Below are positions 3,842 through 40,763 of a stretch of 64,000 bases of DNA, piece by piece. The notes under the pieces were generated by a model. That model had not been told where the DNA came from. It did no database searches and was given only the letters and a program-made list of their open reading frames with translations. The position numbers and the translations under genes were made by a program. How positions within the stretch are numbered: the first letter of the stretch is position 1; each line of letters begins with the position of its first letter. This DNA comes from Salinicola avicenniae (GTDB taxonomy: Bacteria; Pseudomonadota; Gammaproteobacteria; Pseudomonadales; Halomonadaceae): NCBI RefSeq assembly GCF_023736115.1, contig NZ_JAKQZC010000001.1, forward strand, positions 1-64,000, in the 5' to 3' direction.

Positions 3842-4876
3842 TCAGGCATCGATGCCGGCACGCGACTTTGCCTGAGCTTCCTGACGCGAGACCAGGCCAT
3901 CGGCCACCAGACGTGCAAGGGCGGCATCCAGCGTCTGCATGCCGAGGCCGCCGCCGGTCTGGATCGCCGAGTACATCTGCGCCACCTTGCCTTCACGGAT
4001 CAGGTTGCGGATCGCCGCACTGGCCACCAGGATCTCGTGTGCCGCGATACGCCCCCCACCCTCGCGCTTGAGCAGCGTCTGCGAGATAACCCCCTGTAGC
4101 GACTCGGACAGCATCGAGCGCACCATGCCCTTCTCTTCGCCAGGGAAGACGTCAATGATGCGGTCGATGGTCTTGGCCGCCGAGGTGGTGTGCAGGGTAC
4201 CGAAAACCAGGTGCCCGGTCTCGGCAGCGGTCAATGCCAGCCGGATCGTTTCCAGGTCACGCAGCTCGCCGACGAGGATCACGTCGGGGTCCTCGCGCAG
4301 GGCCGAGCGTAGCGCGGGGGCAAAACCGCGGGTATCGCGATGCACTTCACGCTGATTGATCAGGCAGAGTTTGCTCTCGTGAACGAACTCGATCGGATCC
4401 TCGATCGTCAGGATATGATCCTGACGATGGGTATTGATGTAATCGATCATCGCCGCCAGCGTGGTCGACTTGCCGCTACCGGTGGGGCCGGTGACCAGCA
4501 CCAGGCCACGGGGCAGCATCGCCAGACGCCGGAAGACATCCCCGAGGTCGAGATCGTCCACCGTCCGCACGTTGCTGGGAATCGTACGGAAGACGGCCCC
4601 CGCCCCGCGCCCCTGAGTGAAGGCATTGACGCGAAAGCGCGCGACGCCGGCCACCTCGAAGGAGAAATCGGTCTCCAGCTCGGCTTCGAAGTCGCGCCGC
4701 TGACGATCGTTCATGACATCGTAGATCAGGCGTCGTGCCTGGCCATCGTCGAGCGCCGGCACATTGAGACGACGCATGTCCCCGTCAACGCGAATCATCG
4801 GCGGCAGGCCGGCCGAAAGGTGAAGGTCGGAGGCCCCGTGCTTTGCCGAGAACGCCAGCAGTTCGGTAATATCCAT
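3842..4876 (-). CDS. pilT: Type IV pilus twitching motility ATPase PilT
   Basis: The main retraction motor of type IV pili. The 344-aa protein opens with MDITELLAFSAKHGASDLHL and has the N-terminal PAS-like domain, Walker A GPTGSGKSTT, the Asp-box peptide IEDPIEFVH, Walker B ILVGELRDLETI and the His box TGHLVFGTLHTTSA. Length and motifs are ordinary for PilT. It is divergent from yggS with a gap of only 40 bp, so the two promoters must overlap. The pilT/yggS divergence is the arrangement found in Pseudomonas (PA0395/PA0394). Confidence 0.96.
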   Translation of the reverse strand: MDITELLAFSAKHGASDLHLSAGLPPMIRVDGDMRRLNVPALDDGQARRLIYDVMNDRQRRDFEAELETDFSFEVAGVARFRVNAFTQGRGAGAVFRTIPSNVRTVDDLDLGDVFRRLAMLPRGLVLVTGPTGSGKSTTLAAMIDYINTHRQDHILTIEDPIEFVHESKLCLINQREVHRDTRGFAPALRSALREDPDVILVGELRDLETIRLALTAAETGHLVFGTLHTTSAAKTIDRIIDVFPGEEKGMVRSMLSESLQGVISQTLLKREGGGRIAAHEILVASAAIRNLIREGKVAQMYSAIQTGGGLGMQTLDAALARLVADGLVSRQEAQAKSRAGIDA

Positions 4877-4916
4877 GCGTTTTTATTCGTTCCCCTGCGT
4901 AAGGTACTGACCCAGT

Positions 4917-11875: not shown

Positions 11876-12754
11876 ATGATCTATACCGGCCGCTTCGCCC
11901 CAACCCCCTCCGGCCCACTGCACTTTGGCTCGCTGGTCGCCGCGCTCGGCAGCTGGCTCGATGCGCGCGCCGCCGGCGGCCGCTGGCTGCTGCGTATCGA
12001 AGATATCGACCCACCGCGCTGCCCACCGGGGGCAGACAGCGAGATTCTCGCGCAGCTGGAAGCGTTCGGCCTGACGTGGGATGGCCCGGTGCGCTACCAG
12101 CACGAGCGCGGGGACGCCTACCAGGCGGCGCTGACGCGACTGATCGAGCTCGACATGGCCTATCCCTGTGGCTGCTCGCGCCGGGAGTGGCAGCACCTTG
12201 AGCACTACCCCGGCTGGTGTCGCCATGGCTCGCGCCACCCCGAACGACCGCAGGCATGGCGCCTGCGCACGGATCGTGGCGCCAATCCGGTGGTCTGGCA
12301 GGACCGTCTTTTCGGCCGCCAGGCACTCGATCCGACCCGCCACGGCGACGTGGTCATCCAACGCAAGGACGGTCTGTGGTCCTATCAGCTCGCCGTGGCG
12401 GTCGACGATGCCGACCAGGGCATCAGCGATATCGTTCGCGGCCACGACCTCCTCGACAACACGCCCTGGCAACGCCAGCTTCAGGTCGCGCTCGGCTACC
12501 CCGAACCGCGCTACCTGCACCTACCCCTGGTGATGGGCGAAGACGGCCAGAAACTCTCCAAGCAGAACCTTGCACCCCCGCTGCCACGGCAGGATGACGC
12601 GGTACGCCCATTGCTGCACCGGGCACTGACGCTCCTGGACCAGGCGCCTCCGCCGGCGCTACGCACCGCCCCGGTGGCGCAGCAGCTCGAGTATGCCCAA
12701 GTGCACTGGCAGCCTCGGCGGCTGCGTCCGCAGGCGCACCGCATCGCCCGCTGA
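11876..12754 (+). CDS. gluQ: Glutamyl-Q tRNA(Asp) synthetase
   Basis: Attaches glutamate to queuosine at the wobble position of tRNA-Asp. The 292-aa protein resembles the catalytic half of glutamyl-tRNA synthetase without an anticodon-binding domain. It begins [21 protein letters not shown], where HFGS replaces HIGH, has the zinc-binding segment CGCSRREW...GWC and the KLSKQN loop in place of KMSKS. The frame is open upstream into dksA, but homology starts at 11876. In Pseudomonas the next genes are cbrA-cbrB; here the next feature is the CrcZ-like RNA. Confidence 0.94.
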
Positions 12755-12982
12755 GCCAGTTGTCGATCGAGAAACGACGCCGGAAGAGACTATGGTCTAA
12801 GCGAAACCCATCGCGTTTTACGCCACCCTGTCGCCAGCGCCGCATGGGTGCACCATAAACAGGCAAAATTGATTCTTGATGCCCCTTAATGAAACATCGC
12901 CGCCCCCGTTCCTACGGGCCCGCGGCAACCTGGCATCACCAGAATAATCATAACCCCATGTTTAAAAGCGAAAAAAACTGGA

Positions 12983-12999
12983 GTGGCACGGTGGGTGCA
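12983..12999 (+). promoter_or_regulatory. Sigma-54 (RpoN) promoter of the CrcZ-like RNA
   Basis: The sequence GTGGCACGGTGGGTGCA has GG at 12985-12986, exactly 10 bases, then GC at 12997-12998, the invariant -24/-12 geometry of sigma-54 promoters; TGGCACG matches the -24 consensus perfectly. The predicted start is about 13010. An A-run lies just upstream (12971-12977). CrcZ promoters in Pseudomonas are also sigma-54 dependent and activated by CbrB. No binding site for an activator could be identified with confidence in 12755-12980. Confidence 0.8.
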
Positions 13000-13009
13000 A
13001 TATCTAGGA

Positions 13010-13501
13010 CAAGAAAAACAAACATCGGGTGCCGATCGCCCCAACAAGAACAAGATCACGATCGGCCGGTACCCCAGACTGCCGCCAACAACAACAACAC
13101 GGCATGAAGATACAGGCTCTCGCCGACGGACCGCCAACAACAATAAGGGTCCCGACAGCAACCGACGGCAAACAACAATAATGGCCGCACGGAGCCAGAC
13201 TCAGAATCAGGACGCGACGCGCTTCGCCGATGGGGCAACAACAACAAGCCTCCCCGAGATGCGAAGACTTCCCGGAACAACAACAAGAACCGGGTAGGGC
13301 ATTGCCTGTCGTGTTGGATGATTGTTTTGAATACGAGGTGGTCGCTCACGGCCAGGCCGACAACGACAAGTCAGTGACTGCGATATCGTTCAGCGACTGT
13401 GATGCGTATTCAAGGCGATGCGCCATCACGAACAAGAAGAAGCGGCATGGACGTTGCACAGCATCCTTGGAAAGGGGAGGCCGATCGGGTCTCCCCTTTT
13501 T
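13010..13501 (+). ncRNA. crcZ: CrcZ-like small RNA (Hfq/Crc decoy)
   Basis: About 490 nt with no conserved reading frame, bounded by a sigma-54 promoter and an intrinsic terminator, immediately before pcnB. It carries eight AANAANAA-type motifs starting near 13011, 13043, 13087, 13136, 13170, 13237, 13276 and 13431, plus a weaker one at 13360. Most lie in hairpin loops, for example 13031-13038/13059-13066, 13080-13084/13100-13104, 13128-13132/13148-13152 and 13271-13275/13290-13294. In Pseudomonas, CrcZ (about 400 nt, between cbrB and pcnB) uses such motifs to sequester Hfq and Crc and so relieve catabolite repression. Position, promoter, size and motifs agree. Function here is inferred, and neither hfq nor crc is in the window. 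Confidence 0.82.
13472..13501 (+). terminator. Terminator of the CrcZ-like RNA
   Basis: An 8-bp stem AAGGGGAG (13472-13479) pairs with CTCCCCTT (13491-13498) and runs into five T residues. It defines the 3' end of the noncoding RNA, about 215 bp before the pcnB start codon. Confidence 0.88.
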
Positions 13502-13654
13502 GCTGTCTACTCTTGTGGCTGTCTGAGACAGGCAGGCGCTTCCCCGAACGCCCTCTGCGCTCGTTCTCCCCGCCGCCGTCGAAACGGCCTGTTCATTCAC
13601 ACAGCAGACCGCCAATTCCCCTTGGCAATGCGGGCGGACACGAGGGTCGCGTCT

Positions 13655-13682
13655 TTGCAAGCCATCGGGGCTCCGCTACACT
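13655..13682 (+). promoter_or_regulatory. Sigma-70 promoter of pcnB
   Basis: TTGCAA (13655-13660), a 16-bp spacer and TACACT (13677-13682), with a predicted start near 13689. It gives pcnB-folK a promoter of its own after the terminator of the noncoding RNA. Confidence 0.6.
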
Positions 13683-13716
13683 GGGGTTTTGCTATCTCGC
13701 GAGTCGATTTCGCCGC

Positions 13717-15147
13717 ATGTTCAAAGGATTTTCCCGCTTTCTACAACGTCCCGGTGAACGTTTGAAGACCCTCTTCGGCGCTGAATCCGCCCAAGCTTCC
13801 GAAAACACCCGTCCCACGCGGCGAGTCCTGCCTCGCGACGAACACGATGTCTCACGCCGGGATCTCAGCGAAAACGCCCTCAAGGTGCTCTATCGCCTTA
13901 ACAATGCCGGCTACGACGCCTATCTGGTCGGCGGTTGCATCCGCGATTCGCTGCTGGGCAACCGCCCCAAGGATTTCGACGTGGCCACCGCGGCCACCCC
14001 CGACGAAGTGCGCCAGCTTTTCCGCAATTCGCGCATCATCGGTCGACGCTTTCGCATCGTGCACGTGCGCTTCGGGCGCGAGGTGATCGAGGTCACCACC
14101 TTCCGGGGCCGACACGGCGAGGAAGACGGTGGCAACCACAGCCAGCAGTCCGATGAAGGGCTGCTGCTGCGCGACAATGTCTGGGGTAGCGTCGAGGAAG
14201 ATGCCATCCGGCGCGACTTCACCGTCAACGCGCTCTACTACAGCGTCAGCGATTTCTCGATCCACGACTGGACCGGCGGCCTGCAGGATCTCGACGACCG
14301 CATACTGCGTCTGATCGGCGATCCCGAAACGCGCTACCGCGAAGATCCGGTGCGCATGCTGCGGGCGGCGCGCTTTGCCGCCAAGCTCGATTTCAGCCTT
14401 GCTGCAGAGACCGAGGCGCCGATCCGCGAACTGGCACCGCTGCTGCTGCAGATCCCACCGGCGCGTCTGTTCGAGGAAGTCCTCAAGCTGTTCCTCTCCG
14501 GCCACGCCGTACAAAGCTTCCGCGTACTGCGCGAGCTGGGACTGTTCGCCATGCTGTTCCCGGAAAGCGACGAAGCGTTGCAAGCGCTCCCCTGGGCCGA
14601 GGCACTGGTGGAGCAGGCGCTGGCCAACACCGACACCCGGCTGGCAGAGGATCGCCCGGTCACGCCGGCGTTCCTGTTCGCTGCCCTGCTCTGGCCCTGC
14701 GTGACCCAGCGCACGGCGCAGGTCGCCCACGAACAGGACCTGCCGGAGGTGCCCGCACAGCAGGCAGCCGCCCAGCAGGTCATCAGCCGACAGTTGCAGC
14801 ACACCTCCATCCCCAAGCGTTTCAGCATGCCGATGCGCGATATCTGGGAACTCCAGCAGCAGCTGCCTCGCCGCCGAGGCCGGCGTGTCTTCCAGACGCT
14901 CGAGCATCCGCGCTTCCGCGCCGCCTACGATTTCCTGCTGCTGCGCGAGGAAGCGGGCGAGCTGACACCGGGGCTGGGCCAGTGGTGGACCCGTTTTCAG
15001 GATGCCGACGAGAGCGAACAGCATCAGTTGATGGCGGAGGTCGATGGCGGCCATCCGGCCGGCAACAGCGGCAAGCCGCGCCGCCGCCGTCCGCGCAAGC
15101 GCCGCCGTAATCCCAACCGCTCGACGCCGCCGACGCTGGATGAGTGA
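13717..15147 (+). CDS. pcnB: Poly(A) polymerase I
   Basis: Adds 3' poly(A) tails that promote RNA decay. The 476-aa protein has the class II nucleotidyltransferase core LVGGCIRDSLLGNRPKDFD (catalytic DxD), RRDFTVNALYY and IGDPETRYREDPVRMLRA, and ends in a long Arg/Lys-rich tail (RRRRPRKRRRNPN) as in other gammaproteobacterial PAP I. The open frame reaches back into the noncoding RNA, but MFKGFSRFLQRPGERLK at 13717 is the natural start. folK begins 8 bp before its stop, so the two are coupled. Confidence 0.95.
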   Translation: MFKGFSRFLQRPGERLKTLFGAESAQASENTRPTRRVLPRDEHDVSRRDLSENALKVLYRLNNAGYDAYLVGGCIRDSLLGNRPKDFDVATAATPDEVRQLFRNSRIIGRRFRIVHVRFGREVIEVTTFRGRHGEEDGGNHSQQSDEGLLLRDNVWGSVEEDAIRRDFTVNALYYSVSDFSIHDWTGGLQDLDDRILRLIGDPETRYREDPVRMLRAARFAAKLDFSLAAETEAPIRELAPLLLQIPPARLFEEVLKLFLSGHAVQSFRVLRELGLFAMLFPESDEALQALPWAEALVEQALANTDTRLAEDRPVTPAFLFAALLWPCVTQRTAQVAHEQDLPEVPAQQAAAQQVISRQLQHTSIPKRFSMPMRDIWELQQQLPRRRGRRVFQTLEHPRFRAAYDFLLLREEAGELTPGLGQWWTRFQDADESEQHQLMAEVDGGHPAGNSGKPRRRRPRKRRRNPNRSTPPTLDE

Positions 15148-39108: not shown

Positions 39109-40695
39109 TCACTCGATGTCGACGCCTTCGAAGCTGTGGCCACCGAGCGGGTCGACAACATAACCGGTCACTTCGGAACGCACCGGCATGAAGACCGTGG
39201 AGTGGGCGAGGGTGTCCCACGGCGCCTGCTCCTTGAAGATCTCCTGCGCCTGCTCGTAGAGCGCGGCGCGCTCGGACTGGTCGTCCAGCGTGCGGGCTTC
39301 CTTGATCAGGTCGTCGAACGGCTGATAGCACCATTGCGAGCGGTTGGAACCACCGACGCCGTCGCAGCCGAGCAGCACGCCCATGAAGTTGTCCGGATCG
39401 CCGTTGTCACCGGTCCAGCCCAGGATGACCGCGCCCTCGCGATCCTCGGCCTTGGATCGCTCGAGGTATTCACCCCATTCATAGGTGACGATGTTGGCGG
39501 TCACGCCGACCTTGTCCAGGTCCGACTGCATCAGCTCGGCGGTACGCCGGGCATTCGGCATGTACGGTCGCTGCACCGGCATCGCCCACAGGTCCATCTC
39601 GAGATTCTCGACGCCGGCCTCCTCGAGCATCTGGCGTGCCTGCTCGGGGTCGTACGGGTCATCCTCGATCTCGTCGTTGTAGCTCCACATGGTCGGCGGG
39701 ATCGGGTTCTTGGCCACCTCGCCGGCGCCCTGGAAGACCGCATCGATGATCGCCTGCTTGTTGATCGCCATGTTCAGCGCCTTGCGCACTGCCGGCTGAT
39801 CGAACGGCGGCTGCTGGGTGTTGTAAGCCAGGTAGGCGACATTCAGCCCCGGCTCCTGCATCACCTCGATGTCGGCGTTCTGCTTCATCGCGTCGACGTC
39901 GGCCGGATTCGGGAACGGCATGACCTGGCACTCGCCAGCGCGCAGCTTCTGGTAGCGCACCTGGGCGTCCGGCGTGATCGCGAAGACCAGATTGTCGATT
40001 GGCTGCTGGCCGCGGAAATAGTCCGGATTGGCCTGGTAGCGGATCGCCGCGTCTTCACGATAATCGACGAACTGGAACGGGCCGGTGCCGATCGGGCGCT
40101 GGTTGGCCATCTGCAGCTCGTCCTGCTCGATCAACTGCTCCTCGTACTCCTTGGAGTGGATCGAGGCAAAATCCATCGCCAGGTTGGCGACGAACGGCGC
40201 TTCCGGCCGTGTCAGGTGAAAGACGACAGTGTTGTCGTCGACCTTCTCGATCGAGTCGATCAGATCGCCCATCGACATGGCGTTGAAATACTCGAAGCCA
40301 CCGTTGGCGAGCTGATAATACGGGTTCTCTTCATCCATCTGGCGTTCGAAGGTCCAGATGACGTCGTCGGCCGTGAGCGGCCGGCTTGGCGTGAAGTAGT
40401 CGGTGGACTGGAACTGGACATCGTCACGCAAGTGGAAGGTAACTTCCAGACCGTCCTCGGAGACCTCCCAACTTTCGGCAATGGCCGGCTCAATTTCGGT
40501 GGTACCCGGCTTGAACTGGACCAGACGGTTGTAGACCGTCTTGCTCGACGCATCGAAGGTGGTGCCGGCCGTGTAGAGCGAAGGATCGAATCCCTCCGGC
40601 GAACCCTCGGAGCAGTAGACCAGCGTCTTGGCCATGGCGGGGGTCGCGCCCGCCATCATGGCGGCGACCCCAGCCGCTAGCAGCGTCTTCTTCAT
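39109..40695 (-). CDS. dppA: Periplasmic dipeptide-binding protein DppA
   Basis: Substrate-binding protein of the peptide importer, 528 aa. It has a signal peptide (MKKTLLAAGVAAMMAGATPAMAK, cut after AMA) and the family-5 SBP fold: YCSEGSPEGFDPSLYTAGTT, TWTFERQMDEENP-like hinge and GWTGDNGDPDNFMGVLLGCD. Sequence character is that of DppA (dipeptide or haem) rather than NikA. The start at 40695 has GGAGA upstream. Acidic residues exceed basic ones, as expected for an exported protein of a halophile. Confidence 0.93.
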   Translation of the reverse strand: MKKTLLAAGVAAMMAGATPAMAKTLVYCSEGSPEGFDPSLYTAGTTFDASSKTVYNRLVQFKPGTTEIEPAIAESWEVSEDGLEVTFHLRDDVQFQSTDYFTPSRPLTADDVIWTFERQMDEENPYYQLANGGFEYFNAMSMGDLIDSIEKVDDNTVVFHLTRPEAPFVANLAMDFASIHSKEYEEQLIEQDELQMANQRPIGTGPFQFVDYREDAAIRYQANPDYFRGQQPIDNLVFAITPDAQVRYQKLRAGECQVMPFPNPADVDAMKQNADIEVMQEPGLNVAYLAYNTQQPPFDQPAVRKALNMAINKQAIIDAVFQGAGEVAKNPIPPTMWSYNDEIEDDPYDPEQARQMLEEAGVENLEMDLWAMPVQRPYMPNARRTAELMQSDLDKVGVTANIVTYEWGEYLERSKAEDREGAVILGWTGDNGDPDNFMGVLLGCDGVGGSNRSQWCYQPFDDLIKEARTLDDQSERAALYEQAQEIFKEQAPWDTLAHSTVFMPVRSEVTGYVVDPLGGHSFEGVDIE

Positions 40696-40763
40696 GGTGG
40701 ATCTCCTGCACAGCACTCGCTGTTATTGTTGATATCGGCGTTCTGCCAATCCTTGCCCGCTAT

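Follow-up and report, generated by a model that had tools for sequence, protein, structure and literature searches.

Upstream of pcnB, the halophile Salinicola avicenniae carries what is very probably an RNA of the CrcZ type, judging from its position, its promoter, its motifs and the presence of genes for its partners Hfq and Crc. We consider it highly likely that this RNA of about 490 nt is an Hfq-Crc decoy, transcribed with sigma-54, that has outlived the CbrA-CbrB system and is now switched on by another activator. In the mechanism that we propose, sigma-54 RNA polymerase would transcribe from the site at 12984-12999 and the transcript would end at about 13502; its eight mostly single-stranded A-rich clusters would bind the distal face of Hfq, together with Crc; and the bound Hfq could no longer occupy the ribosome-binding sites on catabolic mRNAs, which would be translated whenever the RNA is abundant, opening the way to less favoured nutrients. 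The RNA would have outlived CbrA-CbrB, the sensor system behind crcZ activation in Pseudomonas, in Salinicola and in six other genera, in which the CbrB subsites are gone and a different sigma-54 activator, most likely NtrC, would turn it on. The “carbon control” of which the first-pass annotation spoke would then describe the output of the RNA, and the input signal may have changed.

The gap under study runs from the end of gluQ at 12754 to the start of pcnB at 13717, within a window that comprises the whole analyzed stretch of 64,000 nt. The window’s genome is 99.99% complete in 11 contigs. For comparison, we searched a family group of 81 genomes in 24 genera, which we take to be the Halomonadaceae, and an order group of 293 genomes, which we take to be the Pseudomonadales. 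Both neighbours proposed for the gap hold up in Pfam (GluQ, PF00749; PcnB, PF01743, PF12626 and PF12627). Of 16 named Salinicola loci, 15 have gluQ directly upstream, and the remaining one (L038) ends at a contig edge; pcnB is present in all 81 family genomes, in all of which the DNA upstream of it was examined. Fifteen loci, 14 under the title Salinicola and one under “Gammaproteobacteria bacterium MFB021”, have a PcnB that is 83-87% identical to the window’s; for S. tamaricis (L089), the best segment gives 44%. The features of the region are as follows:

11876-12754, plus strand: gluQ, glutamyl-Q tRNA(Asp) synthetase, upstream neighbour
12788-12797, no strand assigned: palindrome GACTATGGTC, 196 nt before the promoter
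12849-12865, plus strand: putative enhancer TGCACCATAAACAGGCA, resembling an NtrC box (left half good, right half weak)
12984-12999, plus strand: sigma-54 (-24/-12) promoter TGGCACGGTGGGTGCA, conserved across the family
13009-13502, plus strand: predicted CrcZ-type RNA of about 490 nt; start at about 13009 placed from the promoter, end after the T5
13011-13021, plus strand: AANAANAA cluster 1, 11 nt
13043-13053, plus strand: AANAANAA cluster 2
13087-13097, plus strand: AANAANAA cluster 3
13136-13146, plus strand: AANAANAA cluster 4
13171-13181, plus strand: AANAANAA cluster 5
13237-13247, plus strand: AANAANAA cluster 6, in the loop of a consensus hairpin
13276-13289, plus strand: AANAANAA cluster 7, 14 nt, in the loop of a consensus hairpin
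13310-13428, plus strand: conserved core, a helix ATTGTTTTGAATACG / CGTATTCAAGGCGAT with inner and outer helices, in 78 of 81 family genomes
13431-13441, plus strand: AANAANAA cluster 8
about 13470-13501, plus strand: intrinsic terminator hairpin with T5, from the predicted fold; some stem pairs vary on both sides among 17 Salinicola RNAs
13717-15147, plus strand: pcnB, poly(A) polymerase, downstream neighbour

The first-pass annotation had described a sigma-54 promoter starting at 12983, eight motifs, a stem with a T5 terminator and no credible gene, and each of these elements was recovered. The promoter, which we place at 12984-12999, scores 26 of a maximum of 27 on our own consensus score, and in the family genomes the first AANAANAA mostly starts 27-28 nt past the promoter’s TGG. 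Between 13009 and 13502 we counted 17 overlapping copies of AANAANAA in eight clusters, all 11 nt long except one of 14 nt, far above the numbers in 1000 dinucleotide shuffles (mean 0.3, maximum 4). Elsewhere in the 64 kb, there is 1 more copy on the plus strand (17 of 18 thus lie in the RNA) and there are 4 on the minus strand. The array is predicted to be single-stranded, with 90% of the motif bases unpaired in the window’s RNA compared to 63% of other A’s and 36% of all remaining bases. The predicted folding energy of this RNA lies 2.25 standard deviations under that of shuffled sequences, of which 2 in 100 fold equally well.

Two other readings of the gap can be weighed against this anatomy. 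The stretch lies on the same strand as pcnB and directly upstream of it in the genomes that bear the unit, as a long regulated 5' leader of pcnB would, with no separate RNA; the hairpin with its T5 about 215 nt before pcnB makes such a leader very unlikely. The stretch is also overlapped by several ORFs of 50-115 aa, whose short proteins might be the real product. Of nine overlapping ORFs compared with 16 Salinicola loci, none is kept: the best, at 13418-13765, extends into pcnB and counts as open, at a threshold of 80% of its length, in 4 of 16, and the six that lie mostly within the RNA are open in at most one of 16. The gluQ control, by comparison, is open in 15 of 15 loci where it was matched. 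We therefore regard short proteins as the product with next to no credence.

Both protein partners of a CrcZ-type RNA are encoded in the window’s genome. One of the five Exo_endo_phos proteins found there is Crc-like, scoring 278.6 bits to Crc of P. aeruginosa (4jg3) versus 44.4 bits to exonuclease III (1ako); its scores to two entries labelled exodeoxyribonuclease, however, are 274.8 bits (2myi) and 214.1 bits (2jc5). By our reading, the GDFN and SDH words of exonuclease III are replaced by CGTWH and SEF in this protein, and a separate exonuclease III is encoded that scores 372.5 bits to 1ako. The Crc query matches all 81 family genomes at E 1e-50, the weakest match having 65% identity. The Hfq protein (L170) has Phe at the site of the distal-face Tyr25 of P. 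aeruginosa Hfq, where a Tyr25Asp exchange impairs CrcZ binding (PMC4063720, in the portion available).

The RNA resembles CrcZ of Pseudomonas and Azotobacter (Rfam RF01675), to which CrcY and CrcX are related, in having a sigma-54 promoter, several A-rich Hfq-Crc motifs and a genome that encodes Crc and Hfq, and in lying before pcnB and, in those relatives that have cbrB there, after cbrB. As described in the accessible part of PMC4063720, CrcZ of P. aeruginosa titrates Hfq and has 407 nt and six A-rich stretches, against a predicted length of about 490 nt and eight clusters here. Unlike CrcZ, the Salinicola RNA occurs where neither CbrAB nor the paired CbrB subsites were found, it is single-copy by our own model of the core (R1, see below), and the sequence of its core is particular to the halomonad RNAs. 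It is also rejected by the Rfam CrcZ model. This search had been proposed as a check, and on that point the expectation failed: the window gives 12.5 bits against a gathering score of 95, and at the gathering threshold no Rfam model matches anywhere in the 64-kb window. A hit to Atu_C4 from an E-value scan of Rfam (17.5 bits versus 80), located over the terminator, was set aside as chance. In ten other loci (nine of the family and L078), the CrcZ model reaches 22.3 bits at best; it has no match in the window’s own genome, a silence that tells us nothing because the 14 control genomes gave none either. This model is narrow: under strict filters, 14 of 293 order genomes score above its cut-off, and 59 reach E 0.001.

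For R1, 37 core sequences were chosen from 78, with at most two per genus, and the three with long inserts were omitted, leaving 34. R1 finds a single copy in the window’s genome (106.8 bits) and no second one there. Run on 22 loci from other families, including 20 matched by Rfam CrcZ, it gave nothing (E up to 10, default filters). On this result, we do not claim a structural alignment to Pseudomonas CrcZ, and the probable homology is argued from synteny, promoter and motifs instead of from alignment. We also looked for a long common helix that carries TTTTG on one side; Pseudomonas-like, f2, f20, f35 and Mangrovitalea loci yielded candidates, but rival helices scored just as high and the positions differ, so that a helix shared beyond the family is a lead only. 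Six loci from Litorivivens, Spongiibacteraceae, Mangrovitalea, Parahaliea and Sediminihaliea (L073, L075, L077, L078, L082 and L084) have a layout in which a sigma-54-like site and 6-11 copies of AANAANAA lie between an open frame of 476-552 codons and pcnB; the frame was read as CbrB-like only in L073 and L078. These are possible CrcZ-type RNAs outside both families.

Comparison of the gap across halomonads, another proposed check, supports the CrcZ-like reading together with the promoter, the motifs and the encoded Crc and Hfq. A sigma-54-like site and an A-rich array precede pcnB in 80 of 81 family genomes, with 6-9 clusters per RNA in the 60 that bear CbrB and 5-9 in the 20 that do not; where cbrB adjoins pcnB, the RNA lies between the two. 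The promoters of G007 and G018 (the latter weak) were placed by hand, and the one exception, G024, is excluded from promoter counts. In G024 (L130, L198), cbrA-cbrB lies at a different locus, with the RNA at neither place; none was found within the 1.5 kb examined beside the displaced cbrB. Within the RNA, the core ATTGTTTTGAATACGA...CGTATTCA is nearly invariant in 78 of 81 genomes, a count that excludes a spurious match in G024, and it is missing from G017, G018 and G024. Over the 34 aligned cores, 92.3% of cells pair, compared to 34-48% when one partner is slid. Covariation in the core is weak: four pairs vary on both sides, a number reached by 41 of 500 shuffles, and sliding by -1 yields six. 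The central helix has no both-side changes, with 10 of 15 pairs invariant. In other words, the support for the core is conservation, not covariation. For the full-length RNA, RNAalifold on 17 Salinicola sequences gave 68 pairs. In 11 of these (a count without a null), both partners are exchanged in one sequence or more; pairs in the motif hairpins and the terminator are among them.

The conservation of the core exceeds what a mere sponge requires, and it speaks for a reading in which the transcript would be an Hfq-binding RNA acting mainly by base-pairing or protein binding through its core, the clusters serving stability or Hfq loading. A pure decoy would not require ATTGTTTTGAATACGA to stay almost unchanged in 78 of 81 genomes, nor 10 of 15 central-helix pairs to be invariant in 34 sequences. 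The array of 5-9 clusters, however, is present in all 80 unit-bearing genomes, even in the coreless G017 and G018, and we hold this reading to be improbable, if the strongest of the rivals to the decoy. A decaying relic, its transcription lost along with CbrAB, might be seen in G018, with its weak promoter and missing core, and in G017, which lacks the core as well. In the window’s genus, however, promoter, motifs and core are intact in seven of seven genomes, and the 17 Salinicola RNAs have long invariant blocks beside variable columns, which leaves a relic marginally less credible than the pcnB leader. Loss of the motifs in close relatives, which would have spoken against the RNA, was not seen.

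What distinguishes the Salinicola locus from those of most relatives is the lack of cbrA and cbrB. In most relatives, the gene that ends immediately upstream of the RNA encodes an NtrC-class regulator. We took this regulator (query P0001) to be CbrB because its matches in family f21 are 64-66% identical and lie just before Rfam CrcZ matches (e.g., in G303 and G199); f21 was taken as Pseudomonadaceae from CrcZ scores of up to 367.8 bits. The gene order in G049, for example, is gluQ-cbrA-cbrB-RNA-pcnB, where CbrA was named by its place, its size (an open frame of 995 codons) and its kinase domains, with no Pfam match to an SLC5 domain. These other halomonads resemble the CbrA-CbrB system of Pseudomonas, with cbrB before the RNA and TGTTAC and GTAACA subsites. 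Of the Pseudomonas-like position initially claimed for the gap, the place upstream of pcnB is present, but cbrB, downstream of which crcZ lies in Pseudomonas (PMC8871633, available in part), was not found; gluQ adjoins the RNA here because cbrA and cbrB are missing from the locus.

Across the family, CbrB was found in 61 of 81 genomes (E 1e-105) and CbrA in 46 (E 1e-120), and across the order CbrB was found in 242 of 293; first-look candidates scored per genome numbered at most 20 for CbrB in the family, 10 for CbrA and 5 for CbrB in the order. The 20 family genomes with no CbrB match are all seven of the window’s genus and those of genera g7, g9, g15, g16, g17 and g18. No CbrA match was found in any of these 20, nor in 15 CbrB-bearing genomes (genera g2 and g6, with G011, G014 and G019; e.g., L153), which have CbrB and its subsites and hence an apparent orphan CbrB. 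The best match to CbrB in the window’s genome, at 47% identity, is NtrC: it exceeds the NR(I) cut-off of 620 with 757 bits, and an NtrB gene (367.8 bits against 240) lies nearby. CbrB was thus not found in this genome, yet the RNA stands upstream of pcnB, and relatives with the same RNA have cbrB. On a PcnB tree of 60 of the 81 genomes and five outgroup loci, the fewest CbrB changes are two, with Salinicola apart from the other six genera; a single loss was not rejected (p-AU 0.22).

The promoter has changed along with the regulator. In P. putida, three CbrB subsites are described, with TGTTAC forward and GTAACA reverse (excerpt of PMC6296734). Wherever a genome has both CbrB and the RNA (60 of 60), TGTTAC is found at -114 to -136 relative to the TGG, and GTAACA at -78 to -81; the pair occurs in none of the 20 CbrB-less genomes, the seven of the window’s genus included, one of the 20 (G015) having a lone TGTTAC. 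When all 6-mers and 7-mers were counted, words of the CbrB subsites best separated the two groups (GTGTTA, 59 of 60 versus 0 of 20; TGTTAC, 60 of 60 versus 1 of 20). This co-loss of CbrB and its subsites is our strongest single result. Since the RNA is kept without CbrB or its subsites, a different sigma-54 activator must, if the RNA is transcribed in these genomes, be driving it.

The best candidate for this activator is NtrC. The E. coli NtrC box has the consensus TGCACCAnnnTGGTGCA (PMC8743547, partial text), and, as in NtrC-dependent sigma-54 promoters, a 17-bp site of the TGCACCA type lies upstream of the -24/-12 element; unlike in those, the right half of the window’s site is weak. [TC]GCACCA occurs at -133 to -147 in all 20 CbrB-less genomes. 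As a marker of these genomes GCACCA was rejected, being found within -150 to -125 in 38 of 60 CbrB-bearing genomes as well, in many of them close before TGTTAC. With sites of this type so common there, NtrC is a candidate and no more. Boxes with at most two mismatches number 30 in the window’s genome against 14 for the reversed pattern, so that a single match is weak evidence; they include a one-mismatch box before ntrB and a two-mismatch box that, together with a sigma-54-like site, precedes the gene of an ammonium transporter (TIGR03644, 535.3 bits, cut-off 514). Measured against shuffles, the best box has a mean z of 2.2 in the seven CbrB-less genera (0.3 for the reversed consensus) and 1.4 in 16 CbrB-bearing genera (0.05), with no raised scores in g3, g4 and g10 of the latter. 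Among the CbrB-less genomes, p was at most 0.05 in five of seven of g1, five of five of g15, one of one of g18 and two of three of g7, but in none of g9 (one genome), g16 (two) and g17 (one). The best boxes are those of g15, which score 16-18 of 18 at -112 or -113 in five of five genomes.

Other enhancer-binding proteins of the genome could serve as activators instead: L159 (GlrR, above the cut-off), L161 (LuxO-like, below it), L162 (nothing above the cut-off) and L160, identified by reading alone. The palindrome in the upstream region, GAC[CT]ATNGTC, is present at -230 to -160 in 16 of 20 CbrB-less and 28 of 60 CbrB-bearing genomes, and we know of no factor that fits it.

A reading that fits these distributions is that the promoter was formerly served by two activators, for which Pseudomonas hutU, with CbrB and NtrC on one operator, provides a precedent (PMC8871633, in the part available). 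More tentatively, and with somewhat less than even confidence, we suggest that the decoy passed from a carbon to a nitrogen sensor: joint control by CbrB and NtrC would be ancestral, CbrA and then CbrB would have been lost stepwise, and NtrBC alone would act in Salinicola and its relatives today. If so, nitrogen limitation, and not poor carbon, would lift catabolite repression in these bacteria.

In its accessible sections, a 2022 review calls CbrAB unique to the Pseudomonadaceae, and gives the order cbrA-cbrB-crcZ as described in Pseudomonas and Azotobacter only (PMC8871633). The presence of CbrB in 242 of 293 order genomes and of a CrcZ-type RNA in 80 of 81 halomonads contrasts with this view of a private circuit. 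We found no halomonad report of such an RNA in the open-licence literature on CrcZ or CbrB in Halomonas, Halomonadaceae and related genera, including the available portions of PMC9049629, PMC13086519, PMC5073097 and PMC13414033, and no mention of NtrC control of a CrcZ RNA among the matches listed for CrcZ with NtrC in that literature or in the accessible part of PMC8871633. We infer that the RNA, which is no member of the Rfam family and lacks the activator of the known system, works like CrcZ. The lineages that have it without the described activator form a natural experiment, which suggests that the decoy is separable from its sensor and makes the question of other drivers of CrcZ-type RNAs directly testable.

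Two of the five copies of AANAANAA outside the RNA lie close before start codons. The copy at 40723 (minus strand) stands 35 nt before the ATG of a gene at 39112-40695 (minus strand) for a DppA-like dipeptide-binding protein (NCBIfam 755.7 bits, below the cut-off of 1005; Pfam SBP_bac_5), a candidate target of Hfq-Crc. The copy at 4880 (minus strand) stands 11 nt before the ATG of a PilT/PilU-family ATPase gene at 3845-4876 (minus strand; TIGR01420), which is likewise a candidate target.
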